Shown: positions 1,135 to 41,800 of the stretch, piece by piece
How the letters are laid out: each line of letters opens with the position of its first letter
How positions within the stretch are numbered: the first letter of the stretch is position 1
NCBI GenBank assembly: GCA_963930775.1
Contig: OZ005705.1
Span: 2,542,001 to 2,606,000, forward strand
DNA from: Cliona cf. orientalis
Lineage: Eukaryota; Porifera; Demospongiae; Clionaida; Clionaidae
Reading direction: 5' to 3'
Length of the DNA stretch: 64,000 bases
Program-made: the position numbers and the translations under genes
Notes under the pieces: model-generated
Database searches by the model: none
Seen by the model: the letters and a program-made list of their open reading frames with translations, nothing else
What the model was told of the DNA's origin: nothing

Positions 1135-1753
1135 TATAATTATACACACTATAATAATATGAACCCCTGACCATCTCCCCAGTAGCTGCATAGTGTAATG
1201 GTGCATGTGGTAAAAGGTCGTCAATAGAATGCGTACACATCGATCGATGCTCGCCCCAGAAATCATGGAGTTGGCGTCTAAGATCGACTCTCAGCCTTGA
1301 CAGCGATAAGTTTCGATGCTTCAATCACAGAGACGAACTCGACAGTACAGTATTCCTTCCGAACTTCAGGTTGGTCACGCTGCTGCAGTCGCGTACGGGC
1401 CAGCCCCTTGTGCATGTGACAATGCGTGCTATATATAGCGCAAGGCTAGCTTTATTTATCCACGGCATTACGTAAGCCAAGAAAACACGTGAAGTTCAAC
1501 CAACAGTACTTCTCAGAGAAAGTAGCGCTCAGCTTGTAATGTATTCGCTGGATACACGCGTAAGATACTCTACATATTTACTGATTTTCAAGTCCCAGAA
1601 AGGCTCCAGCGAGGCCCTGAATTTTCTCATATTTACCTCATAGATTAATACCTAAGAGATTACACCATAGGTTTCATCATAATTACACCATAATTACCTT
1701 ATAACCACAGAAAAGTAAATTGCTACTGGAGAGATAATGAACAACTTAGAGAC
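1135..1753 (+). repeat. Leader copy 1 of a composite repeat (precedes tandem array 1)
   Basis: About 600 bases align by eye with 14727-15357. Both contain CCAGTAGCTG, ATGGTGCATGTGGTAAAAGG, ACACATCGATCGATGC, GTGCTATATATAGCG and ACACGTGAAGTTCAACCAAC, and both run straight into a tandem array of ~400 bp units. A third, more diverged and shorter copy is at 6483-6680. Leader and array therefore look like one composite element. The short frames inside are not conserved between copies and do not look coding. Confidence 0.75.
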
Positions 1754-3047
1754 TACGTCCAGAGTCCCTCATGAATACGCCGCCATAAATTCGAACTAGG
1801 ACACATCGACAAACTGCGCATGCTCCGTATACGTGTACAATATTGGGGCGCGCGGCTTGAGCCGGTTGACCTTCACCCGCCATGTGCTCGACTGAATAGG
1901 GATATCCCCCCGAGTGCGAGCTCGCCAAAGAAAGCGAACCGAGAAAATCGCCATATCTCATCGATAGTCCACGATGTCTTCTACGCTAGGTTCGAATTCT
2001 GGGTCCCAACAACCTTTCGTGCGCGCTAAACATTTTGAAACAGTTTCACAGGAATTACATCATAAGTTTCATCATATTTTTCATCATAGGTTTCATCATC
2101 ATTTCATCATAATTTCATCATAGCGAGAGCCGAATTCTTTGTTTCTAATTGGGACTCTGGACGTAACGTAATTATGAACAACTTAGAGACTACGTCCAGA
2201 GTCCCTCATGAATACGCCGCCATAAATTCGAACTAGGACACATCGACAAACTGCGCATGCTCCGTATACGTGTACAATATTGGGGCGCGCGGCTTGAGCC
2301 GGTTGACCTTCACCCGCCATGTGCTCGACTGAATAGGGATATCCCCCCGAGTGCGAGCTCGCCAAAGAAAGCGAACCGAGAAAATCGCCATATCTCATCG
2401 ATAGTCCACGATGTCTTCTACGCTAGGTTCGAATTCTGGGTCCCAACAACCTTTCGTGCGCGCTAAACATTTTGAAACAGTTTCACAGGAATTACATCAT
2501 AAGTTTCATCATATTTTTCATCATAGGTTTCATCATCATTTCATCATAATTTCATCATAGCGAGAGCCGAATTCTTTGTTTCTAATTGGGACTCTGGACG
2601 TAATAACGTAATGAACAACCTAGAGACTACGTCCAGAGTCCCTCACGAATACGCCGCCATAAATTCGAACTAGGACACATCGACAAACTGCGCATGCTCC
2701 GTATACGCGTACAATATTGGGGCGCGCGGCTTGAGCCGGTTGACCTTCACCTGCCATGTGCTCGACTGAATAAGGAAATCCCCCTGCCCTGAAAGCGAGC
2801 TCGCTAGAGAAAGCGAACTGAGAGAAACGCCATAAGGATATCATCGGATAGTCCACGATCTCTTCTACGCTAGGTTCGAATTCTGGGTCCCAACAACCTT
2901 TCATGCGCGCTAAACATTTTGAAACAGTTTCACAGCAATTACATCATAGGTTTTATCATAGGTTTCATCATCATTTCATCGTAATTTCATCATAATTACC
3001 TCATCGCGAGGCCGAATTCTTTTTTGCGAATTGGGACTCTGGACGTA
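1754..3047 (+). repeat. Tandem array 1: three ~412-420 bp units with 15 bp inverted ends
   Basis: Units at 1754-2165, 2191-2602 and 2628-3047. Each starts TACGTCCAGAGTCCC and ends with its inverse GGGACTCTGGACGTA. About 25 bp spacers (TGAACAACTTAGAGAC type) separate them, so each junction can fold into a hairpin. Units 1 and 2 appear identical over their length (period 437), a very recent duplication; unit 3 is diverged. Each unit contains a TTTCATCATA-type microsatellite near its end. The repeated 69-71 residue frames in the units are by-products of the duplication, not genes. Confidence 0.9.
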
Positions 3048-3049
3048 AT

Positions 3050-5340: not shown

Positions 5341-5767
5341 GGCTCACTACTGTCGCATCACAGTCCCATCATGCAGTCACTAGATCTACTGTTGCATCAG
5401 TTACCTGCAGTATCCACTGTCACATCAGTAGACTGAATTTATAGTATATCGTCACATCCGGGTACCTATAGCCTATAGGCTATACCTCCCCCAACATAGC
5501 TTTGAACTTTGCCATACGAAGTGAAGCGAAAATGACGTCATCGCAGTTGAATCCTGCAAGGTGTGTTACCGCAGAGCGAGAAAGCGAGCCTGGAAGTATC
5601 GTACTTGTACTTGAACTTTGCCTGCGCGGACAAAATGAGGTCAACGTTTGTAAGATCGTTGATTTCTATGGTGATACTTTTCTGTACCTTCTTGAACTGG
5701 GGCAATAGTGTGAGTTCTATGATATATCAGTATAGTGAGTGGTGGGGCTGGTACCCCGGACTACTTA

Positions 5768-6051
5768 CACTGGCGTAAGAAGCAGGGGGGCTGGGGGGGC
5801 TGTAGCCCCCCCCCCCCCCCCCCCCCCCCCCCAATCTTGTCAGCCAAGTATGCCTAAACCTAGGAAGATATTTATTCTACTAGGCCTTGACATCTTCAGA
5901 TTTGTGATGTAAAGTCTACTTTACAGCTAAATTAGCATAATAATGGGCATGGTTTGAAGGCATATCATGTGATCCAAAACATTTTTTGTGTGCTTTGCAC
6001 ACAACTTTTATTTACAGCCCCCCTGTTCAAAAATATCTTCTTACGCCACTG
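5768..6051. mobile_element. MITE with CASTGGCGTAAGAAG ends and 6 bp target duplication
   Basis: The left end CACTGGCGTAAGAAG is mirrored by CTTCTTACGCCACTG. It is flanked by TACTTA at 5762-5767 and 6052-6057, giving a 284 bp element. It contains a run of 27 C (5806-5832). The CAGTGGCG-type end recalls hAT elements, but the visible duplication is 6 bp rather than 8, so the superfamily is open. Confidence 0.75.
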
Positions 6052-6410
6052 TACTTAGAGATGTTACTAAATACTGTCTTTCTGGAATAAATTTGTACAA
6101 TTTGAGGCCCTCTTCACCATGTATCTGGACATATGGATTTGTTATTAGCTATATCCCCAGTAGCAATTTACTTTTCTGCAGTTATATTATTGGGTAATAA
6201 TAATGTTATTATTATGAGAGGTAGCTAATCTTTGTCGTAATGAAAAGAAAATCAGGGCCTCGACAGAGCTCCTTTGATACCTGAAAATTTGCTGAATACA
6301 GATATCCAGTGAGTAGCTATATAGCTACTTTGAAAGTTCCATATGCATGTTACAAGCATCCCGCTGTTGTAACTCGGCAAGTTTTCTGGGCTGACGTAAG
6401 GTAGCTATAT

Positions 6411-13356: not shown

Positions 13357-16300
13357 GTACATGAATGTCCCAGGTCAATCCTGCATTCCATTCTGTGAGG
13401 AAAAGTGTTGGGCACTAGCAAGTGTTTTCTTAGTAATGCATTATGTTCTGTGTCTTATTATAGGTAAACCAGGGAGATTCCAGCTTTAGTACCATCATAC
13501 ACAAGTTTAAATTGCCTATGTAGACTGTTGACCGATCAGATTTGAGGTTTAGTCTAGCATAACTGTGTTGGCATATGCACACAGAGCCAACCAATCAAAG
13601 CAAATGGCTCAAGGTCCCCACACCCTTTGCTTCATTAAGGGTAAGATCCAGGAATGAGACAAAATTATATCCAACCCTAGTTTTGTTACCCTTGTAAGCT
13701 ATAATTATTTTTGGAGTCATGGTGGGGATTACATTAGTCAATTTGTCTGTACATGTACATAATATAATATATACATGTATTATATGTGTATATAGAAGCA
13801 TAATATTGCTATTCTGTCACACTGAAAAGGGAAATAAGTGCACACACACTATTTTGCATCAAATTTGCAAGATGACCCTCCACATTTGGTATTCAGGTTC
13901 CCCAAGACCTTGAACTTAACTGATGGGGTACAAGTAATTGGCTGCATTAATCCATGGGAACTAGAATGAAAATGAAATTTCCTGAAATAAGATAGGGAAT
14001 TCCGCCCTGTCCTCCAAATAAATATTGATTTTAGAAAGTTGGTAAAGTGGTATATGTTGTCACACTGACCACGTAGCTAATGCGAAAGAGTACCCATACC
14101 AATATCTAAATCAACAAGGCCATTGCCAATGTGAATTGTGGTTGTTCATTATAGGGCTTATAATTGCATACAAGTAAATAATTTGCAGCCCTATTTCAGT
14201 TATCTGTGTGTTTCTTCCTCAGAGCCTTCAAGCCCCCCTCTTGGTGTGCAAGTGAGAGCAGATAGCTCTGAGTCAATTACAGTGCTTTGGGATGAACCTG
14301 AAAGTACCAATGGAGGAATTAGAAACTACTCAGTTTTGTGCTTACATAATCAATCTCAAGAGATCGTTGTAAATGAGACAGTGTTTGAACCACAACCTGT
14401 ATCTCGGTTTTTTCTTGAGCCCAATTCGACGTACTCTTGCCAGGTTGTTGCCTATAATGACTATGGAGCTAGTCTTGCTCAGCAAGCAGTGGGAACCACT
14501 CTTCCAGTATCAAGTGAGAGTGTTTGCAGCCAAAGCTTGCCTGATAACTATCGCTGACATTTTTCATTATAGCTGTTGCTAGCCTGTTATTGGTGGTGTA
14601 CACAGATGGTGTGGAATATGCAGAATTGACTGCCTCTGCGATACAGAGTCGTATATTGAGATATGAACGCCTTCTCAACACTACTGAAGACACAAAGATA
14701 AGAGGTGTGTTTGCCATAAATGCAGTAGTCATATATATGAACACTTGACCATATCCCAGTAGCTGTATAGTATAATGGTGCATGTGGTAAAAGGGTCATC
14801 AATAGAATGCGTACACATCGATCGATGCTGGCCCCAGAAATCATGGATATAGCGTCTAAGATCGACCCTCAACCTTGATAGAGACAATTTTCGATGCTTC
14901 AATCACAGAGATGAACTCAACAGCACCGTATTCCTTTCGAACTTCAGGTTGGTCGCGCTGCTGCGGTCTCGCGCGGGCCAGCCACTTGTGACGATGCGTG
15001 CTATATATAGCGGAAGGCTAGCTTTATTTATCCATGGCATTACGTAAGCCAAGAAAACACGTGAAGTTCAACCAACAGCTTGTAATCTATTCGCTGGATA
15101 CACGTGTAAGATACTCTACATATTTACTGATTTTCAAGTCCCAGAAAGGCTCCAGCGAGGCCCTTGGTTTTTTCATAATTATCTCATAGGTTACATCTAG
15201 CCTCGTCCCCAGGCCCCTCCCAACGCTGGGAGGGGCCTGGGGACGAGGCTAAGATTGCATGATAATTTCATCATAATTTCACCATAGATTACACCACAAT
15301 TACCTCATAACCACAGAAAAATAAATTGCTACTGGGGATATAATGAAAAACTTAGACTACATCCAGAGTCCCTCAAGAAAAGTACATGTATTCATATTCG
15401 CCGTGCCTATTACATCGACAAACTGCGCATGCTCCGTATACACGTATATTGGGGCGCGCGGCGCGGCTTGAGCTGGTTGACCCGGACGTGACCTTCACCT
15501 GTGCTCGACTGAACAGGGAAATCCCCCCTGACAGCGAGCTTGCTAAAGAAAGTGAACTGAGAGAATCACCATATCTCATCGATAGTCCACGATCTCGATT
15601 TTTCTTTTACGCTAGATTCGAATTCTGGGTCCCAACACCCTGTCATGCGAGCTAAACATTTTGAAGCAGTCATCACCTCAATTTCATCATAGATTTCATC
15701 ATAGGTTTCATCATCATTTCATCACAATTTCATGATAATTACCTCATCGGTCGGCCGAATATAGATTTATTGATTGGGACTCTGGACGTAATGAACAACT
15801 TAGACTACATCCAGAGTCCCTCATGAATACACCGCCATAATTCGAACTAGGACACATTGACAAACTGCGCACGCTCCGTATACGCGTATATTGGGGCGCG
15901 CGGCTTGAGCCAGTTGACCTTCACCTGCCACGTGCTCGACTGAATAGGGAAATCCCCCCTGAAAGCGAGCTTGCTAAAGAAAGCGAACTGAGAGAATCGC
16001 CATATATCATCGGATAGTCCACGATCTCTTCTCTACGCTAGGTTCGAATTCTGGGTTCCAACACCCTGTCATGGGAGCTAAACATTTTGAAGCAGTCTTC
16101 ACCCAATTTCATCATAGGTTTCATCATCATTTTCATCATCATTTTATCATAAATACCTCATCGATCGGCCGAATCGATTTGTGAATTGGGACTTTGGACG
16201 TAATGAACAACTTAGACTACGTCCAGAGTCCCTCATGAATACACCGCCATAATTCGAACTAGGACACATTGACAAACTGTGCATGCTCCGTATACGCGTA

Positions 16301-19300
16301 TATTGGGGCGCGCGGCTTGAGCTGGTTGACCTTCACCTGCCACGTGCTCGACTGAATAGGGAAATCCCCCCTGAAAGCGAGCTCGCTAAAGAAAGCAAAC
16401 TGACAGAATCGCCATATATCATCGGATAGTCCACGATCTCTTCTATACTAGGTTCGAATTCTGGGTACCAACACCCTGTCATGTGAGCTAAACATTTTGA
16501 AGCAGTCTTCACCCACTTTCATCATAGGTTTCATCATCATTTTCATCATCATTTCATCATAATTACCTCATCGATCGGCCGAATCGATTTGTGAATTGGG
16601 ACTCTGGACGTAATGAAAAACTTAGACTACATCCAGAGTCCCTCATGGATACGCTGCCATAATTCAAACTAGGACACATTGACAAACTGCGCATGCTCCG
16701 TATACGCGATATTGGGGCGCACGGCTTGAGCCAGTTGACTCGGACATGACCTCCACCTGCCATGTGCTAGACTGAATAGAGATATCCCCCCGCTCAGGTG
16801 CATTAAGGACTGGGACACCAATTTTACTGTACAATAATTTATGACATACAACTTGCTATATCTCCAAAAATAATTGTGATGCAGACATGAAACCTTTTAC
16901 AGATTATGAAGTAACTCTTCCTCTAACCACCAACAGGAAATGAGCTCCACCCACTAATTAATGACACGTGTATGGCTTCAGCGCTAACGCCGCTTTTGCA
17001 ACACAAATCGCAATAAGCGGTAGGGAAAACATCCTTCAATAACTTCTTTACTGCGTTTATTAGTATCATTGCAACCTGTTGCAATTTATATGCTTAGGCC
17101 AGGCTACATAAATAACCTACCTATAAGTAAATAACTAAAACAATTGTTTACCTGGGAGGAGTAGGTATGTACCACGGAAATATCTCCGTCGATATGAATC
17201 CTACCGCTCCTGCTCAAGCTGTACTCGATCTTTAACACTAAAACTGTCGAAAAAAACTAGGACTGCAAACATTCTAGGCAGGTTTTCACTACCGCCAGAG
17301 ACGACATAGCTCTATGGGCGATCCATGCGGCCTCTTTCCAGAGATGAATGGGCGTAACCGCCGAGTCACATGACATAATTCATTGCGTGTCGTTATCTTT
17401 TCAACTGTGCACGAATATTCATAAAGCAATTGACAACTACATGCAGTACAGCTGCAATACACTCATAATATAAACACTATACACATAATACAATTAACAT
17501 TGGCGGGCTACTGATTGACCAAAGCGTGTGCATGAGTAAACAGCTGTGAGGCTTCTGATCTTCACTTGAAAGTTGACACAACAGGTAAAATGCATGGTCT
17601 GTAAACTGTACTCAGAAATGAACTTGGCTTGGTTGTCTTTGTTGAAGATTTGGCTTGCCTAAGTGTGCGTATGTGTGTGCATACGTGTGTGTGCAAGTTT
17701 GTGCGCGAGTGGGAGAGCATGAGATAGTGGGAGAGAGGGCCGAATGTGTGTGTGTGTGTGTGTGTTGGGGGGGGGGGGAGAGAGAACAACATTGTAATAA
17801 TTTTAGTGTCAACAAAATTTTATTAATAATCCCATTTTAATATATAGCATGCCGATTCCTACAAATCAACTGTGGATATGCCAGGGTAGCAATAAGGGAG
17901 CTATCGTCACCTGAGAGAATGAAAAGTAGGTTGGAAGTAGCGTATGAACAGCGCAGACGGGACTTTCTACAGTTATTTTCGAGCGAAAAATTTACCATCC
18001 CAGAAGAATATCGGTCATCTACCAATCGCCAATTTAACAAGCATTGTGACAAAATCTTGGACTATTTTTCCAGCAAATGGCATCCACCAAGTAAGCGACT
18101 TGAGTATCTATCAGTCTTTTCACCAGAAAATTGGAAACATCTTACCACTAGTGAGATGGAAAAGCACACACTTTCTTCATGCACAGCATGCTATATTAAC
18201 CACCAATCCCTACAGGAGTGTTTCCCTGGCAAACCAGTTTTCATACCACCCTCTATAATATCCCTTCCAGAATGTGAGCGCACCATCCGTAGTGAAAAGT
18301 CCATGACAAGGAAGGTATTAGGGGAGCTTAATTCCCTCTGGGAAGAACAATATAGTCACAGTTTTACCTCACAACTACCAAGAAATGCCCCTGAAGAAAA
18401 CTCAACGAGAAAATTGTCCAGATCAGAAAAAAAGAAGCAAGACAGAAATAAAAAACGAGCTATAGTACAACAAATTAGCCAACACATGAAAGAGAACACG
18501 GCAATGTCAGTTTTAGCAGAGGCACAGTCCCTTTCTAGCTACAACAGGAAGCGGCTAGCCTTGGGTTTTGAAAAACCTAGTGAGCCCAGCAAAAAACACA
18601 AGTCTCATTCTCCGAGTGACTCTAGTTTAACCTGGGATGTTGACTCTGCTATTCTAGAACTACAAAGCTTTCCGGAGGATGAAACAATAAATTGGTCTCA
18701 AATGGCTAGAAAATATAGCATCCCTCAAAAAAATGGTGGCCAAGTGCTTAAGGAAGTTGCCAAACGAAGGGGCATTGATGTTAACAAATTAGATAGCAGA
18801 GGTGATTGCACACAGAGGATACGGAGAAAGAAAAAAAAATTGGTTGGAGGGGAAATTTCTACGCCATGTTTGCCTACAACACAACAAATCACAGAAGACA
18901 AGTATAAACTGATTGAATCAGGTGAACTATCAATAGGGGAACCCTGTACACCGTACACTATAACAAAATCCACAGTAACATCTACTGGAGATATAAAAGT
19001 CGAGTCTATGAGCATATATGGGCGAAAAATCCCCCTTCTAGACTTAAGAAAAAGTCTTTTGGCCAAGCATGAGAAGTATATGCGTATTAGCATGCCACAA
19101 GCACATGCAGGTACGGGTGCGAACGAAACGTGTACCAGACATTTAGCATTATGGCACGACCACTCAACCATACTTCACACCGGCTATATACTTTTTGCTA
19201 TGTGGATCCTGTATGATCCAAAGGTATTCATGACGGAGAGTGAATACTACACTCTATCTGGACAAAAATCTCTAATCTCCAAGAGGTCATAGAAGAACCG

Positions 19301-22300
19301 GTAATTTATATGATTGCCCCTAGTTCATCCTCGCCTGAACTTCAGATAGCACTAGTTCCAGATCGAGCAGAATGTCTCACTGACCTCTCACAGCCAATTC
19401 TTTCTAGCAGGGGGAATGAGATTTGTGACACCTTACGCTTTTTTTGTGGAGATACACCTGCTAGACAATTTGAGAGGGGAACCCAACTTGGCGGAACCTA
19501 TAAATGTGGCAGCTGCGGATGCAAGGATACAATGATGGCTGATTTACCACACGTACTTGAAAAAAAGTGGAGAAGTCTCGCTGACCTTCAAAGTTTGATT
19601 CTAGGTGGTAAATTTGGCAATATCCCCGGGAAATTAAAACCCCTTGATAATCTTGTTGTGTCCAACTTACGAGAGGAGTTACAGGCTAGGCACATCAGTA
19701 CTGAAGGCAAAAAAAAGCCCGAGTTACAGGCAAAACTTACAGAGATTCTACAAGGGGCACAAAGGGTACCTACTATACTAACTCAAAACCCATCTAGACC
19801 ACTTTCTAATCTAAACCTACAACGATATGAAGTGCTCGATTGTGAGCCACTTCATGACCTTAAAGGTCACCTTTACAATCTCTTGCCAGAATTCGTAGCT
19901 CTATTGCCAAGCCCACTACACGAAGAATGCAAGAGAATTCTGGACTCAACGTTGGTGAAAGATAAGACGAGTGGAGCATTATTTAGAGCAGCAGTAGTTA
20001 AATTAATGGAAAAATTACAATGTATTGATGATGTGCTACTATCTCTTTTGACCACAATAGTAAAAGTTTCCGAGATATTGTACCTTCGAGACTCAAAACG
20101 CACACCTAAGAGAGTCCTTCAACTATATAACTGTTCATGGGTACACCACGAACTATGTTATCAGTTATTATCCACCCCAAAATTTCAAACAGCAACCCAT
20201 TTTTTTGGCCAATATCTCCACAATCTAGTGGTACACGCACCACCTCAGTACGAGCTCGTATGCATGCGTTCAACTAACGCCGAAAGTCAAGAAAGGCTCT
20301 TCAGCCAAGCAAAGCACATCAGTCAACGTGCAACAAACCGAAAACCAGAAAATGTTGTACCTACAATACTCCTCAGTCTTCAAGCACGGCAAAAAGTGGC
20401 GAGGTCCAACAATCACTCAAAAAACAAGAAACAGTAGTTTCTTCAATTTCAAGAAGTTTATTACCATTTCAAGGTACCAAAATTTCAAAAAGTTTTCTAC
20501 ACACAAGGAAACAAAGCTGGCAAGCACACATGCGTCGCATCAGTCCCTTTCTAGTTTATGGAGAAAATATTTGGTGGACACAAACTGAAACAGACTACCA
20601 GTTTTTTGATTCCGATACTGACCCTGAGTATCAGTCTGAGGGACCAAACCTGATGCACTTTAGTGAGCATATGCTGCCAGATATTTTTTCCCGGCACAAT
20701 GAAACATGGAGTACCATTCTTTCTAATGAGAGCATAATTATGCCTGCGTCTTCCATCAAGCTCTATGACAGAGATGGTAACTTCACTGGAACCAGATACT
20801 ATCCACCTCAACCACAACGGTCAGAGCCGACTAACTCCCAACACTCGAACAATACATCGCCAACATGTGCACAAAATGGGCATGAAGATGACCTAATGCA
20901 AATCGATTATACTACCATTTCACCACAAGCTCCGAGTGCCAGCCTGCTAGCTACTGAGGGCAATCAGGAAACAACAGAGTCACCAAGCACTAGTGGAACC
21001 ACCCCACAAGATCAACCAGTTCAAACACCTAGTACCACCTTTAGTGGACTGTGCTATACAACACCACACACGAATGGTAAGAGCTTAGTACCAATAAGCT
21101 TATTCTCTTCAACTAACTTACACATACCTTCTTCTGATGCTAACGTCGAGCCTTCAAATCAATGTGAACCGGTCTCCACAGAACCAGAAGAGATTGTCTC
21201 TATTGACTTCACTGTAGACATCGATACACCTACGATAAAGACGACACATCAGACGAAAACAGCGAAGTTGCTCCATCACACACTTGGTGACAACAGTGAT
21301 ATCACACTATTAGATAATCTACGTGTAACCTTGAAAGAAAAGAAACAGAAAAAACTTAAACCGAGCCAACACATCGTTCAACAGTATAATACAGTCACAG
21401 CTAAACTCTATCTTCAAGTAGGTTCAGTGAAGCGTGAAACAAAAAGACAGGTTGTGGATTTCGAAAAAGCCTACAATACTCAACATGGGAGGTTTCCTGA
21501 TCGATCGAAAAATGAAGACTACAACAAGTTACTGAGGACCTATGATAATCTAAAGAGACTTCTTCAAAACTGGGACTCCCACGTCTGTCTTTAAACTCGC
21601 GTACCACTCTCCATGCCAACAAATGCCGTCTTTTACTGAACTACTGTCATATTTATAGCTTTTATTCATATATATGCTGAATTTTATTCTTCCTTTTTAC
21701 TCTCTTACCTGTCATTTTCTTCGTTGTAAGATTCTTTCTGTCCTTGTGTCTCTCGCCATACTACGCCCCCAGTCATAGCCAAGGATATCAAACAATTGCG
21801 CACAGAATCTTTTGCGTATACGTGTTCATGATCCGCACGTGACATTTTGCATAATAAATACTCATTACGCGCATTGCGCGTGGCGCAGCGCATCCCAGTC
21901 CTTAATGTACCCGAGCGAGTGCGAGCTTGCAAAAGAAAGCGAACTGAGAGAATCGCCATATCTCATCGATAGTCCACGATCTCTTCTATGCTAGGTTCAA
22001 ATTCTGGGTCCCAACACCCTGTCATGCGAGCTAAACATTTTGAAGCAGTTTTCACCCCAATTTCATCATAGGTTTCATCATCATTTCATCATAATTTCAT
22101 CATAATTACCTCATCGATCGGCCGAATATCGATTTGTTGATTGGGACTCTGGACGTAATGAAAAACTTAGACTACATCCAGAGTCCCTCATTAATTTGCC
22201 ACCATAATTCAAACTAGGACACATTGACAAACTGCGCATGCTCCGTATACGCAAATATTGGGGCGCACGGCTTGAGCCGGTTGACGTGGACGTGACCTCC

Positions 22301-25300
22301 ACCTGCCATGTGCTTGATTGAATAGGGAAATCCCCCCAGAGAGCAAGCTCGCTAAAGAAAGCAAACTGAGAGAATCGCCATATATCATCCAATAGTCTCC
22401 TCTACGCTAGGTTCGAATTCTGTGTCCCAATACTCTGTCATGCGAGCTAAACATTTTGAAGCAGTCTTCACCCCAATTTCTTCATAGGTTTCATCATCAT
22501 TTCATCATAGGTTTCATCATAATTACTTCATCGATCAGCCGAATCGTGAATGTAGAAACACTGTGTGCTGGCTTATATTTAGGCTAAGCAACAAGATGCT
22601 GGGTGACTTCAACTGTATATTTGATCGAAGCTTTTCATCACAAGTGATGTGACTCATCAGGATAAAAAAACAGAGAAATCACAAAAGCTTAAATAAAAGG
22701 CACAAGGGCTAAAAAAAATGAGGGCTCAAAAAAAATGAGACGAAAGTCTCAATGAAATGACAAACAACAGCAGAAAGCAGACTGGGCTACCTAGTCTCAT
22801 TTCGTCTCATTTTTTATCTCATTTCATTGAGACTTTCGTCTCATTTTTTTTGAGCCCTCATTTTTTTGAGCCCTTTTGCCTTTTATTTAAGCTTTTGTGA
22901 TTTCTCTATTTTTTTATCCTGATGAGTCACATCACTTCTGATGAAAACTTCGATCAAATATACAGTTGAAGTCACCCGGCATCTTGTTGCTTAGCCTAAA
23001 TATAAGCCAGCACACAGTGTTTCTACATTCATAGCCAAATCGGTTAGTTAATTGGGACGCTGGACGTAATGAAAAACTTAGACTACATCCAGAGTCCCTC
23101 AAGAAAAATATTCACCGCGCCTATTACATCGACAAACTGCGCATGCTCTGTATACGTGTATATTGGGGCACGTACACATGTAGCTTGAGCCAGTTGACCC
23201 CGACGTGACATCCACCTGCCATGTGCTGGACTGAACGGGGAAATCCCCCCGAGTGCGAGCTCGCCAAAGAAAGCGAACTGAGAAAATCGCCACATCTCAT
23301 CGATAGTCCACGATGTCTTCTACGCTAGGTTCGAATTCTGGGTCCCAACAACCTTTCATGCGCGCTAAACATTTTGAAACAGTTTCACAGCAATTTCATC
23401 ATCATTTCATCATTACTTTCGTCATCAATTACTCATCGGTCAGCCGAATTCTTTTTTTGGAATTGGGACTCTGGACGTAACTTAGAATTGATAATGCTAT
23501 TCATTTTTCTCTGATTCTATAGGTCTTGATTACCACTTTTATCACAAAGAACTTTACCTGACTCAAAACAATCACTGTATTACAAGAATTCCAGTAATCC
23601 TTGATGAAACTACTATGCTGAGCTCCTTAAGAAGAGCTGCTGGTATGAATATATAACTCTAGGCACATACACCATAGGGTTATTATAGTCTTTCTGTCTA
23701 TGTACACGAAGTCTTTATCAATTTTATGCATTGAAAACAAGGTGTCCTAGAATTCTCTATGGTGTTTTCTTGGTTTTGTTGTGTGGCTTTCACTGAATAC
23801 TATATAATGTCTCTAAAATTAACATGTTAACTACATCTTAATTTAGCGAATTTAGCCACTGGAGCAAATTTGCTAAATAATTAATTAATTAAAATGAGGC
23901 TAAAATTTCTTCTCAACAACATAAGCTGTTTATAAAATACTCTCACTCGAGTCTGAGCTGCAGTCCAGTTCTTTATGGCCTCTAGTATCTGTTGAGTAGC
24001 ATCTGGAATATATATACTCTGAGACATCAGAAGTCTGAACTGCTACATGTATGTGAATACTTTATTCAGTATTGTGGTAGCTATATACAAACAAAATCAC
24101 TAAATTAAGTTGTAGCTAAATTCTTTCTTTTGAAAATCGCTAAATTAAAACTAATGCATCAACACAAAGGTATATATTTGGTATCACTTGCTGGTTACTG
24201 CCACCTTTCTCTTTCCTCCATGCCTTCTTGATAGGTAAGTGACAGCAACAATTTCTTTTCAGTGTGCATATCTAGTGAATAGCTCCCAGCACATGATTGA
24301 CTCATCACTACCTGGAGCTATGTAACTAACTGCCAAGCTTCTTTCCATGGTACTGCTGCTTGCTGTGATTACTCGGTTGATTGTCTGGCTTCACATGGCT
24401 GTGTGCACTCGATATCACTACTTTATCTTGCTATCTTGGGCATATTATTCAGTGCACTTGTGCTGCTATTATAGTGCTTCATATTATCTTTGATTGTATA
24501 CTCTGTGTACCACATTTTGATTGGTGGTGTTTGATGATTGAGGCGTGCACCAACACAGTTGTGGCATTATGCTTTATTGCTTTTATTGTGACATTGTTCA
24601 TGCATGCATACACATAGTTGCCTGGGATGGCATGGAAAAACACATTGTGCATGTATAGGTGTAACTATTAGCCTTATTAATGTTAATTTTTGTGGCTATA
24701 AGAATTTTTTGTGGAGTGCATGAATGATATGTTGTCTTTCGTATTTACTGAATGCAGATCCTGAAGTTCTTTTCAACCGTTCTGCTGATCTTGGTTCCAT
24801 AGCTGTTGACTGGGTGAACAATGAGCTCTATTGGGTTGAAATACAACTCGGATACAGGGTATGCTGATAGTTACATAGTGTGCGTATTTTATTGAATATG
24901 GATGTATGTTCCCATAGATAATGCGTGCTATAATCAACAGTGATGGCTCTGTTGTGGGTCCATTCTGTGTTGTCAGTTTCACAATGGGTACAGTGACTCA
25001 CTTGGCCATTGATCCAAATCATGGGTGAGTTCATGCTAGGAGGCTTATTCATTATGTATAGCATGATTATGTGAATTGCAAAGATTCACACAAAGTGTTG
25101 CTTTATAGTATTCTAGGACGTATAATTAACGCTTGGGATGTGTGCATGAGGGTTGTGTACTACTCCGCCTGGTACCTACAAGGCGCTTAAAAAGTTTATG
25201 TCTGCACACTTTACACTAATATTCCAAGGTTTTCAACTTGCAGATTTCTATCTATCGTTTTCCTACAGTAGTTTTGCTCATTTTTGCCAAGTCATCCATT

Positions 25301-35800: not shown

Positions 35801-38800
35801 TATCCAGACTTGGAAGAGAAGGCTAGGGAATGTCTAGCTCTTAATCACTATCTTGGACAAATTGACAATCCTCAAATTGCATTCAGCGTGAGACAGAGGC
35901 AGCCCAAGACCGTAATGGAAGCTGTAAGTGGCACAATTGAGATGGAGTCCTATCTGCAGCCAAAACCGAGCCGAATTGCTCAGGTGGAGCCAGAGCCAGC
36001 AGCAGAGTCCGTCATTGCGGCCATACAGAATCAGCAGACGGCCCTGCTGGGTGCCTTGGACAAGGTGATGGAACGCTTGGAAAAGCTGGAAGCCAAAGCA
36101 CAGGAGCCGCCCAAGGGACCCCCAGCTGCACCAAGGGGAAGCTCTGGCCAGAGGCCAGTAATTGTATGCCGAAAGTGCCATCGAGAAGGGCACTATGCTC
36201 GAGGATGTGCGTCGCAACCGTTACCCTCCGGAGCAGACAGAGAGCCTATGTCCTTACTCCCTGTGACTCACTCCTACCGCTTATCGGGGACAGTAAACGG
36301 GGTTCCCACTACCTTTGTCGTGGATACCGGTGCATCCATCACTGTACTGGACGAGACCCTCTGGGAGAAAACCCACCGTGGGGAGTGTTCCCTGGAGCCA
36401 TGGACGGGACGTCGTCTGGTTGGGGTTGAGGGTACCCCACTCCACATTTGTGGGGTCTCAAATGTCGAGTTAAAGTTTGCTGGTGAGACTTTTCACTGCC
36501 CCGTGTTGGTGGCCCGCTCCTTAACCTCAGAGGCTATACTCGGACTGGACTTTCTGGAGGCAAATAATTGCACCTTGGAGATGGCAGATCGCAAGCTTAC
36601 CTTTCTGGAGCGAGGAGTAGCTGTCTCCCTGTACGACTCTTCACCTGATCCGGAACTCCTCCAAGCACGAGTAACCATCGACGAAACATTGACTATCCCT
36701 CCGTTCAGTATGCTGGAAACCATGGCTAGAGTCAATGGGAAGGTACGGGGTCAGACGTGGCTATTGCAGGAATGCAGAACGAAGCAGTTGCCTGTAAAGA
36801 TCGCTAATGGACTGGTAAACTCTACCTGTGACCAGGTGCCAGTCAGAGTGCTCAACCCCAGTCCAGACAGCCGGGTGGTGTACAAAGGTACCAAGATAGC
36901 TACGGTGGAAGGGGTTAACGACGAACCCCGTCAACCCATTCTGGCTGTGCAACCTGAGGCAAGAGAAGTATCACGGACAAAGCGACAAGCACTCAGCAAG
37001 ATGATGGAGAAGTGTGCGAGCGATCTTGGGGCTGAGCAGAAGGAACAGCTTCTTCAACTACTGATCGAGTTTGCAGACATCTTTGCCGATGAGGGTGAAC
37101 TGGGTCGTACTGACCGAATCACGCACAACATTGATACAGGTAGTGCCCCACCCATCAGGCAGCCTGTCCGCAGAGTACCCGTGTGTCAGAAGGCAGAAGT
37201 CAAAGACCTACTTGCCGATATGGAGAAGAAGGATGTAATTCGACCATCCAATAGCCCCTGGGCTTCGCCTATCGTGCTGGTGCGAAAACGAGATGGCAGT
37301 CATCGATTTTGCGTAGACTACCGTAAGCTAAATGCCGTCACCCGGAAGGACGCATATCCCATCCCTCGGATCGATGACACCTTGGACACCCTGTCAGGTG
37401 CTTGCTGGTTCTCCACTCTGGATATGGTGAGTGGATATTGGCAGGTAGAAGTGGGGGAGAAAGATAGGGAAAAAACTGCCTTTTGCACGCCCTACGGGTT
37501 GTATGAGTTTAATGTTTTACCATTTGGATTATGTAATGGCCCTGCTACATTTCAGAGGTTGATGGACCTGGTGCTATCTGGTCTGCAGATGTCCCAGTGC
37601 CTGGTCTACATTGATGACGTGATTGTAGTGGGACGTACCTTTGACGAGCACCTTTGCAATCTGCGAGACGTCTTTGGACGAGTGAGGGGAGCGGGGCTGA
37701 AGCTCAAGCCGAGCAAGTGCGCTTTTCTCCAAGAGCGAGTGTACTACCTTGGACATGAAGTCTCTCGGAAGGGAGTAGCTACTGACCCTACGAAAATCAA
37801 CCAGGTTGCCCACTGGCCTGTGCCCCAATCAGTCAAGGATGTACAAAAATTCCTCGGTCTGGCAAGTTACTATCGCCGATTTGTTCGCAATTTTGCAAGT
37901 ATCGCAAAGCCATTACACCGACTAACTGAGAAGACTGCAACTTTTGAATGGACTGTAGAGTGCCAAGCAGCTTTTGCCGAGTTACGCCACAAACTGTGCA
38001 CGGCCCCAGTCCTGGCCTTTCCGGACTTCACAAAGCCTTTTATCCTGGACACCGACGCCAGCAACACCGGCATTGGTGGTGTGCTCTCCCAGCTTGATGA
38101 ACAGGGTCAGGAACACGTCATTGCGTTTGCCAGCCGCACGCTGAGCAAGTCGGAACGTCGGTACTGTGTAACCCGTCGGGAATTGCTGGCAGTCGTCGTG
38201 TTCACGCAACAGTTTCGGCCGTACCTACTGGGTCGCGAGTTTACTCTGAGAACCGACCACGGCTCTCTGTCGTGGCTGCAGTCATTCAAGGAGCCAGAGG
38301 GACAGTTGGCCAGGTGGTTGGAGAAACTGCAGGAATTCCACTTTCGGATTTTGCATCGCCCCGGGAAGAAACACACCAATGCCGATGCCATGTCACGGCG
38401 GCCATGTGATCAGTGTGGACGGATTGATGAGGACTTGTTTGTTCCGCAACCATCGGTTGACCCAGAGGAGAACAGTATGGCTACCGTTAGCCCCGTCGTC
38501 ATGGACGCCTCTCCGGTTGGGGATGGAACCCCTGCCAAGCTGCGACAGCTACAACTGGATGATTCTGATATCAAATTCGTTCTGGAAGCAAAGGAATCGG
38601 ACACCCGGCCTGCAGACGACGTCGTCAAAGCCAAGAGCACAGAGGTCCGAAAATTGGTACAGATCTGGGACCAACTGGTAGTGGCAAATGGTGTGCTTAA
38701 GCGCCGTTTTGAAGACGAGGAAGGACAGACTGAGGTGTGTCAGTGGGTCGTTCCAAAGAAACAGAGGAAAGAGATTTTGCACCACCTGCACGATGGACCA

Positions 38801-41800
38801 CTGGGAGCTCATTTGGGAGAGAAGAAAATCCTACAGAAGTTGAAGGAACGGTTCTACTGGCCAGGACATGCAACTGATGTCCGAAACTGGTGTCATTCTT
38901 GTGAACCCTGTGCACAGAGGAAGACACCTATTCCAAAGCCCCGAGCTCCATTGGTCGGTATCCAAGTGGGACATCCCATGCAACTGGTAGCTACAGATAT
39001 TGTGGGACCCTTTCCGGAATCCACATCAGGGAACTCCTATGTTCTAGTGGCAGCAGATTATTTCACTCGTTGGGTGGAAGCTTACCCGATTCCATGTCAA
39101 GAGGCGGCTGTGGTGGCGAAAAAGCTTGTGGATGAAATGTTCTGCCGGTTCTCCCCCCCAGAGCAACTTCTTTCTGATCAGGGTCGCCAGTTCGAATCCC
39201 AGTTGCTAGCCAAAGTCTGTAAAATAATGGGGATCCAGAAATCCCGAACAACGCCCTACCACCCGCAGTGCGATGGTCTGGTCGAACGCTGGAACCGAAC
39301 GTTGCTGCAGAGCTTGGCCACTTCAGTTTCTGATCATCCGGAGAACTGGGACGAATTTATCCAGAAGATTTGTATGGCATATAATACGAGTGTCCACCCC
39401 ACTACTGGTTTCACTCCATTTTTCCTTATGTTCGGACGACAGGCCAAATTGCCAGTGGACTTGCTGTATGGAACACCAGAGCCGGACCCACTGCCACCCT
39501 CACAGTATGCGGCAACACTAAAGACAGCCATGGGTGAGGCCTACGAAAAAGTAAGGACCAAGACAACTCGACAGTTGAAGCACCAGTCGGACCTGTACAA
39601 TCAGAAAGTACATGGCAACCCGTACAAGGTTGGAGATTTCGTGTGGGTTCTCTTTCCACAGACACCACGAGGGAAGTCAAAGAAGCTTTATCGACCTTGG
39701 AAGGGGCCTTTCGTGGTGGTGAAGAAGCTATCTGACGTCACCTACCGAGTGCAGGAAGTCACAAATCGGCGTCGCAGATTGGTCATTCATTTCAATCGGC
39801 TGAAGCCCTTCAGAGGCACGGTCAGTGACAGACAACCCCAGCAGCAGGAACCACGCCCATCCGACGGGCACATGCAAGGAGAAGAGCCGAAGCGTCACTA
39901 TTTTGGCTCACAGCTGGAATTGGCAGAGGAGGATAGCGACACACCAGCCCTGCCATCACCCCCAGAACTTAATGCAGATCCAGCACCTGAACCTCAGGGA
40001 GAAGTTCAAAACACTAGTCGACGCTACCCCCAGCGAGCTCGTCAACCTCCCAACCGATTCAGCCAAGAGTACAGCTGAATGTGGGACACATTCTCGCAAA
40101 AGGGGGAGTTGTGTAATGCGTGCATTTATATACTGAACTAACTTGACTATAATGTAATGTATAGGCCGATGTATTTTACTTGAGTTGTGCAATCACTTAA
40201 ATTGGTTATGTTGTGTATCTGAGCATGCGTGTTGGTATATTATTCTTATGTCATCTTCCAGAACGTTCTGATCACGTGGGTCTGATCAGATCTTGAGTTT
40301 GAGTTGTGTGTCATTTTTTTTGATTGGAGATTTCGATCTGTTGTCTATCAATAAACATTGGATTACATATTACTAAGTAAAGAGGAGTGTGAACAGCTCT
40401 TTACAAACATAAGAAAGGTTTTACAAGGATAAACACTGGTTTGATTTATAATTTACCTTGCTATACTGTTTGCGGTGGAAGGCATTTCCATCAACCTGGA
40501 CACTTATAACTTTGTTGTCTCAAATAGTTTTTCTGGGATAAGCTTTACTGACTCGATGAGAATGAATGTCACATTTATGCTTCCTGGATACACTCCCTTC
40601 CAGCCTAGTCTAATGTGTGGACTGCCACTGTATGCTTCTCGTCGCACAATGTTCACTGCTCTATCTTCTACCTCTTGAATTGTCTTATCTTGGTGACATT
40701 GACATGATAGAATCATTTTCAGGACTAATTTTCGAGATATACGATCGAGAAATAAGCAGCAGAACCAAGCCAGGGACATTTTCTGCCATGTTTTTGCCTC
40801 AAACTAATGATGATTCATGGCTGGCGATTGTGGCTATGCCCATGTAATTGTGTTTACGCATGCATGCGGCTAGTATTTCTTTCGCAGAGCTCCATATATA
40901 TGCGGCTTCTATTTGAATAAATACAGTAGTCAACTATTATTCATTGTATTCCAGCCATATCTTTTGCTGCCTGCTGATGCTGATCTCCTTGCCATGGCCT
41001 TTGAGTGGGTTGGAATGGACCTCTATTATATGCTGCGAGATCAACAGAACAACCTTCGCATCATGAGGGTTTCTACTGTTAATAGAGATGTGCTAGCACC
41101 AGTTGGACCAGTGTTACAAGAACAGGTGTCACCTGCAGACAAGATAAAAATGGTAGTTGATCCGTTTGGGGGGTAAGTTTTCGAGGATAAATGCATGAAT
41201 AGAACAGATTACTTAGTACATACATTTCTTGTGCAGTTACTTACATTGGTTGGTGGTGAGCTCAGCGGAGACTAGCCTTCATCGAATGGACTTAAGAAAT
41301 ACATCTGTGATGAGCAGGTTGACAGTTCAGCAATCAGGCAGTGGACTGACCGACTTGAGGTCACTACGTCTTTCTTCTGCATTGCTGCTGGATCCACAGA
41401 ATGGGAATCTCCTGTTGTCTGATGCTGATAGTGGTGACATTGTCAACTGCAGTGTCATCAGTGAAACATGTAGCACTCTCGTCAGTGCTAGCATGGTACA
41501 ACCTCAGCCAGCCTGTGGTGGGACAGGTACAGCTTTTACTATTCATGATAATAATATTACATGATTATACTATGACTACAATCTATTGTGTTTTAGGCTT
41601 GCCTGCACTTTCTATTGCTCTCAATGAACAACGTCTGTACTGGGTTGGTGATTCATCATCATGCACCTTTGCAATTGAGTTCAATGATCCAACCAATCCA
41701 TTTATGGTCTCGAATTATAGTGCTACTGATATATTGACCCTTAGTCCTGGTCAACAACCTTTGCCAAGTGGGTGTGGCATGCATTTCACAGGAAAGCTGT

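Follow-up and report, generated by a model that had tools for sequence, protein, structure and literature searches.

Transposases of the CMCT group (CACTA, Mirage, Chapaev, Transib and RAG1) have as their hallmark a C(2)C and an H(3-4)H motif between the second catalytic D and the catalytic E, and their elements make target-site duplications (TSDs) of 2-5 bp and have an end sequence that is usual rather than required, as set out in the part of PMC12730594 available to us. Among elements classed under CACTA, SmTRC1 (2-bp repeats at 7/14 copies) and the Tribolium and Aedes TRC elements, which make 2-bp duplications, have CCC ends according to the available sections of PMC1636069, and Spongebob of Hydra (5,836 bp) combines CCC ends with a 2-bp duplication according to those of PMC4298943. 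Here we describe a 5,123-bp transposon at 16793..21915 of a 64,000-nucleotide stretch of the genome of the sponge Cliona cf. orientalis (contig OZ005705.1, positions 2,542,001 to 2,606,000; hereafter the window). It probably represents a lineage within the CACTA/CMCT kind that has diverged far and carries a SAP domain.

The element is bounded by 23-bp terminal inverted repeats, CTCAGGTGCATTAAGGACTGGGA on the left and its inverse CTCGGGTACATTAAGGACTGGGA on the right, which are identical at 21/23 positions and give it the termini CTCAGG..CCTGAG; CG flanks it on both sides (Table 1). The empty site, CCCCCCGAGTGCGAGC, equals the flanks of the element with a single CG, and is read in three intact units of the surrounding array (at 1903, 2340 and 23241). 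The inverted ends, the CG duplication and the empty site had all been proposed in a first-pass annotation made from the sequence of the window, and all three are borne out. The array itself is a tandem repeat with a unit of ~412-437 bp and an internal inverted repeat, GGGACTCTGGACGTA..TACATCCAGAGTCCC; its blocks lie at 1735-3049, 15412-16739, ~21918-22540 and near 23241, and the transposon is inserted in one unit.

The ends recur throughout the genome (217 Mb in 149 contigs searched). The end core CATTAAGGACTGGGA, with at most one mismatch, occurs at 236 places, against 7 for a reversed control pattern. All 17 facing pairs among the matches listed were fetched, together with three other regions, and 24 sequences (L037-L039, L041-L060 and the window) were screened for paired ends with at most four substitutions per end. 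This yielded 19 pairs, comprising 18 short elements (770-816 bp) and the window element, and the direct repeat is exactly 2 bp in 19/19. No pair was found at this threshold in 5/24 sequences (L037, L038, L039, L048 and L060). Read by eye, L037 has a pair flanked by TA/TA, the right end of which carries a deletion, and the short element in L100 is flanked by GA/GA. Altogether, a 2-bp duplication is present in 21/21 complete end pairs examined, the chance of a 2-bp match being ~0.066 per site. The same-ended copies with 2-bp duplications by which the first-pass annotation had proposed to check its transposon are thus present.

The duplicated bases (n = 21) are TA in 10, AA in 3, CA, TG and GA in 2 each, and TC and CG in 1 each. 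TA is over-represented relative to the 0.073 expected from the window (P ~7e-7), so that the target preference is for TA but is not confined to it. Most of the short elements (16/18) belong to one family of ~812 bp, whose 16 alignable copies diverge from their consensus by 1.1-2.5% in 14 cases and by ~6% in two; being so close to the consensus, they indicate that the ends have probably been in recent use. The window element and the 812-bp family share ~80 bp of 3' and ~40 bp of 5' end sequence, ~80-90% identical. The transposon family is real, with recently moved short derivatives (~800 bp) that carry the same ends. Two elements, L046 and L059, are bounded by 23-bp ends of this type and flanked by 2-bp duplications, but have interiors unlike that of the 812-bp family.

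The interior of the window element holds three open reading frames (ORFs), ORF1, ORF2 and ORF3, which run for 483, 397 and 438 codons between stops. A DNA search of the genome gave six matches including the window, the others decayed: L037 (on C2, 88% identical), L038 (two pieces of another copy), L039 (69%) and L040 (64%) are among them. In L040, the ORF1 and ORF2 matches join in one frame and the ORF2 and ORF3 matches overlap in one frame, although L040 is itself damaged by stops and a frameshift. Because these matches share frames, the three adjacent frames listed in the first-pass annotation, although present, are read as a single gene of ~1,250 codons, and on this comparison the predicted transposase gene of the window is broken by two frameshifts. 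The first frame change, at the ORF1-ORF2 junction, is common to the window and L037, which suggests movement with the enzyme supplied in trans; the second sits near 20400-20440, and a small deletion apparently precedes WHDHS. The window copy, which had been called autonomous, is non-autonomous as it stands.

Two other explanations of the frame changes were considered. A 62-bp GT..AG stretch, worked out by hand, would restore the frame at the ORF1-ORF2 junction as a short intron, but this is less likely because L040 is in frame there and the stretch encodes conserved residues. Programmed frameshifting was not favoured, since inspection by eye showed no slippery site. Within ORF1, ~18620-18800 resembles a helix-turn-helix by eye, without profile support. 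Relative L040 is itself interrupted at ~5545-6207 (G000:C1:29646544-29647207) by a ~660-bp element with ~38-bp inverted ends, which has dozens of genome copies ~90% identical and dominated the DNA search made with L040.

The transposase pattern EPLHD-x-KGH, with at most one mismatch, is found at 29 places in the genome, 24 of them exact, and the places differ in their synonymous codons; the control pattern is found at 1. We fetched 11 relatives: L091, L092 and L094 are open across the whole 433-codon stretch, L090 and L098 are open over 354 and 362 codons, and the other six are broken. Among L091, L092 and L094 the proportion of synonymous differences (pS) is 0.83 and that of nonsynonymous differences (pN) 0.31-0.37, and the transposase is therefore under purifying selection. 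Two stretches examined next to L092 showed only GT repeats and no copy of ends of the window type.

From the N to the C terminus, the family alignment has the blocks WHDH(S/A/G)T, DPAVF, GDxPAxQFExGTxxGGxYKCGxC, a SAP-like stretch, EPLHDLKGH, FGxYLHALxxHAPxQxE and NTENQER. Motif scoring covered 15 family sequences. The first and second proposed catalytic D (D1 and D2) are 94-105 residues apart in 10/11 scored rows (81 in the broken L039), and D2 is followed by C(2)C at 18 residues in 13/13, with N in L039 and E in L100 in place of that D. An E stands 19 residues past H(4)H in 9/10 rows that reach it; L089, which is broken there, is without the H pair. The proposed catalytic E is most likely the second E of NAESQE (20291-20293). 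Of the acidic triad suggested in the first-pass annotation, two members agree with the motif, WHDHS for the first acid and NAESQE for the last; for the middle acid the D of GDTPARQ is a likelier candidate than that of PLHD. The small Cys cluster it had noted contains the conserved CxxC. Its SAP domain is matched by Pfam PF02037, albeit weakly (E 1e-4; 22.3 bits, under the cut-off of 23.9); among the relatives, the Pfam SAP match is weaker still in L090 and L094 and is missing in L092 and L098. A far transposase relative at L100:2517-4389, which reads GEGPA with E for the second D, adjoins a short element with these ends. Proteins like that of L100 are presumably common in coral genome annotations.

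The order D-D-C(2)C-H(4)H-E is that of the CMCT hallmark, and the resemblance extends to CACTA elements of the same genome. In nine of these (L070-L078), D1-D2 is 86-91 residues and D2-C is 19 in seven, the rest being unscored by the pattern; H-E is 20 in 6/9, one of them with K for E; and a DPMHN-like motif occurs where the family has EPLHD. The two sets thus share a near-identical D-D-E spacing, a second D that lies in DxPA, C(2)C, PMH/PLH and H(3-4)H before E, and differ in that D1-D2 is ~8 residues longer in the family, which also has the SAP insert, and in the lack of significant profile similarity. A full motif string, composed after seeing both the family and the CACTA sequences, is matched by 4/15 family members, 6/9 CACTA elements and 0/200,000 shuffles of L092, although 19 shuffles match its first half. 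The CACTA population of this genome is rich and apparently partly intact, with 77 PF02992 matches, several of them in open frames of 800-980 codons.

Several observations weigh against placing the family in the CACTA/CMCT kind. No Transposase_21 (PF02992) or other transposase model matched the proteins scanned with E up to 10, a scan whose filters drop most matches above 0.1 and which did not include L091. The termini are CT..AG rather than CA..TG, and 0/29 EPLHD places lie within 10 kb of a PF02992 match (the nearest at 10,189 bases). By eye, 11/15 rows have a D(2)H (DLAH, DQAH and similar) after C(2)C, and the E for the second D in L100 departs from the catalytic pattern. The family was compared with the CACTA set of the genome by hhalign; a shallow profile yielded E 0.39. 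With 14 rows the match had E 0.078 (score 24.2) and aligned the second D and C(2)C in register. However, 3/200 column shuffles scored as high, and the reversed alignment reached 21.1. Without the SAP part E was 0.022, with no shuffle control, and with L100 (the most distant) added and L095 and L099 removed the match was out of register, at E 0.22-0.4 with an incomplete shuffle control. In hmmsearch, run in both directions, the true sequences scored no better than shuffled decoys, the best of them ranking 9/2,015 and 4 or 5/1,009. The link to CACTA by profile statistics is not strong and is not proof.

Further searches were likewise silent. Pfam and NCBIfam scans of the three window frames gave SAP alone above noise, and a PDB sequence search with ORF2 and a three-row alignment returned just SAP-like chains and chance matches. 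No relative was found in viral contigs, prokaryote contigs or phages, and a search of the genome for the RAG1 family (PF12940) gave no match, the control likewise giving none anywhere. The first-pass statement that the element fits no superfamily that could be named therefore holds as far as domain models go, since the scanned proteins match none of the transposase models of Pfam or NCBIfam, but not for the motif order.

Among the described groups closest to the family are the animal TRC elements. These also combine a 2-bp duplication with non-CACTA ends, a comparison by the length of the duplication and not by the bases duplicated. SmTRC1 and the Tribolium element are ~5 kb, like the window element, and the ends are CCCAG in the Aedes and Hydra elements and CTCAG here (available parts of PMC1636069 and PMC4298943). 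The first-pass annotation had used the 2-bp duplication and the ends to exclude CACTA; TRC elements and Spongebob, as described there, have both, and the exclusion does not stand. SmTRC1 differs in its Transposase_21 domain, to which the window family has no match, whereas the family has a SAP domain, a term absent from PMC1636069. ESTA and Lanisha, two further CMCT lineages compared by description only, have the CMCT motifs; ESTA also has 2-bp duplications (of TA), but is reported from fungi, and Transib and RAG1 share C(2)C and H(3-4)H between the second D and E (PMC12730594, in the part available). Chapaev has a 3- to 4-bp TSD and CAC..GTG ends (PMC4079192), as opposed to 2 bp and CTC..GAG here. 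Tc1/mariner elements use TA only, whereas 11/21 duplications in the family are not TA. TSDs are 8 bp in hAT, 8-11 bp in MuDR, TTAA in piggyBac and Kolobok, and 5 bp in Transib and RAG1, all of which differ from the family (2 bp in 21/21), and there is no Pfam match to hAT, MuDR, piggyBac or Kolobok. CACTA/EnSpm in the strict sense has the Transposase_21 domain (PF02992) and CACTA or CAC ends; because the family has neither, we leave it outside CACTA/EnSpm proper. The observations themselves establish the ends, the 2-bp duplication, the empty site, a single conserved protein that is under selection, and the order and spacing of the motifs; placement in the wider CACTA/CMCT kind is probable.

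Three other accounts were weighed. The family may already have been catalogued, whether in Repbase (under EnSpm, Mirage or TRC, for example) or among unnamed animal proteins, which is compatible with the other readings and which we consider a serious possibility, if the less probable case. The likeness of L100 to coral proteins speaks for it. By 2015 Repbase had already moved Mirage and Chapaev into EnSpm (PMC4455052, in the part available). In the literature searched, neither the string EPLHDLKGH nor EnSpm together with a SAP domain was found, which says little about databases.

We judge it unlikely that the family is instead a separate DDE transposon superfamily, its likeness to CMCT motifs reflecting convergence or very remote ancestry, and meriting a name of its own by Repbase practice (iterated profile searches not converging). 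In that improbable event it would be an unnamed superfamily of eukaryotic, probably animal, elements: the insertion of their RNase H transposase would house the SAP domain, the enzyme would have a zinc site of the RAG1-like C2-H2 type and make 2-bp-staggered joins, and short derivatives would have moved recently. The missing Pfam transposase match, the failure of the profile comparison with the genome's own CACTA elements to reach significance, the unusual ends, the SAP insert and the extra D(2)H speak for it. Against it, D, D, C(2)C, PLH, H(4)H and E follow in an order and spacing near those of CACTA, animal TRC elements as described also have 2-bp duplications and non-CACTA ends, and negative profile tests have low power with so shallow a family profile (effective number of sequences, Neff, ~2.5).

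Membership of the hAT/MuDR/P/Kolobok group is very improbable, given duplications there of mostly 8-10 bp (4 for Kolobok) compared with 2 bp in every window-family pair, the absence of a Pfam match, and Y for the H of D(2)H in the open relative L092. The D(2)H of the other rows recalls the C/DxxH between the second D and E in those transposases and in those of Dada (PMC10045372), whereas C(2)C and H(4)H are given for CMCT instead (PMC12730594; both papers as available in part).

Table 1 Features of the transposon, in window coordinates
Feature	Position	Strand	Basis
TSD, left copy (CG)	16791..16792	.	flanking sequence; empty site in array units
Left terminal inverted repeat, 23 bp	16793..16815	+	end comparison; end core at 236 genome places
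ORF1, stop to stop: N-terminal region, helix-turn-helix-like stretch, first catalytic acid	17841..19292	+	open frames, L040 comparison
First proposed catalytic D (WHDHS), codon	19158..19160	+	conserved in family alignment
ORF2, stop to stop: catalytic core	19244..20437	+	open frames, L040 comparison, family alignment
ORF1-ORF2 junction: frame change also in L037, absent from L040	19268..19290	+	sequence comparison
Second proposed catalytic D (GDTPARQ), codon	19451..19453	+	family alignment
C(2)C motif (CGSC), 18 residues past second D	19505..19516	+	motif scoring
SAP domain, between C(2)C and EPLHDLKGH	19646..19744	+	Pfam PF02037, below cut-off
EPLHDLKGH motif (cf. DPMHN of CACTA transposases)	19844..19870	+	degenerate pattern in genome
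H(4)H motif (HNLVVH)	20219..20236	+	family alignment, motif scoring
ORF3, stop to stop: C-terminal extension of same protein	20278..21594	+	open frames, L040 comparison
NAESQE: proposed catalytic E	20282..20293	+	motif scoring
Right terminal inverted repeat, 23 bp	21893..21915	-	end comparison
TSD, right copy (CG)	21916..21917	.	flanking sequence; empty site in array units

No further relative is encoded elsewhere in the window. Positions 36001-40000 have a G+C content of 0.53, compared with ~0.41 around them, and look retroelement-like by eye.

As a member of the CACTA/CMCT kind, the transposase would work like a CMCT transposase; we infer its fold, catalysis and zinc binding, the role of the SAP domain, and cut-and-paste over copy-and-paste movement. 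The transposase would bind the 23-bp ends and subterminal sequence and excise the element, and the 3' ends would then be joined to target strands 2 bp apart, preferably at TA; a 2-bp stagger between the joins follows from the two-base duplication, which gap repair would yield. The window copy, defective through two frameshifts and an apparent small deletion, would need enzyme from elsewhere.

If the placement holds, the CACTA/RAG1 clade gains a lineage with a SAP domain inside the catalytic insert, with different ends and with 2-bp duplications of mixed sequence. One genome offers the empty site, young short copies and open transposase relatives, which makes the cutting residues and the target spacing straightforward to test. 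How target spacing is set is a question linked to the origin of RAG1.

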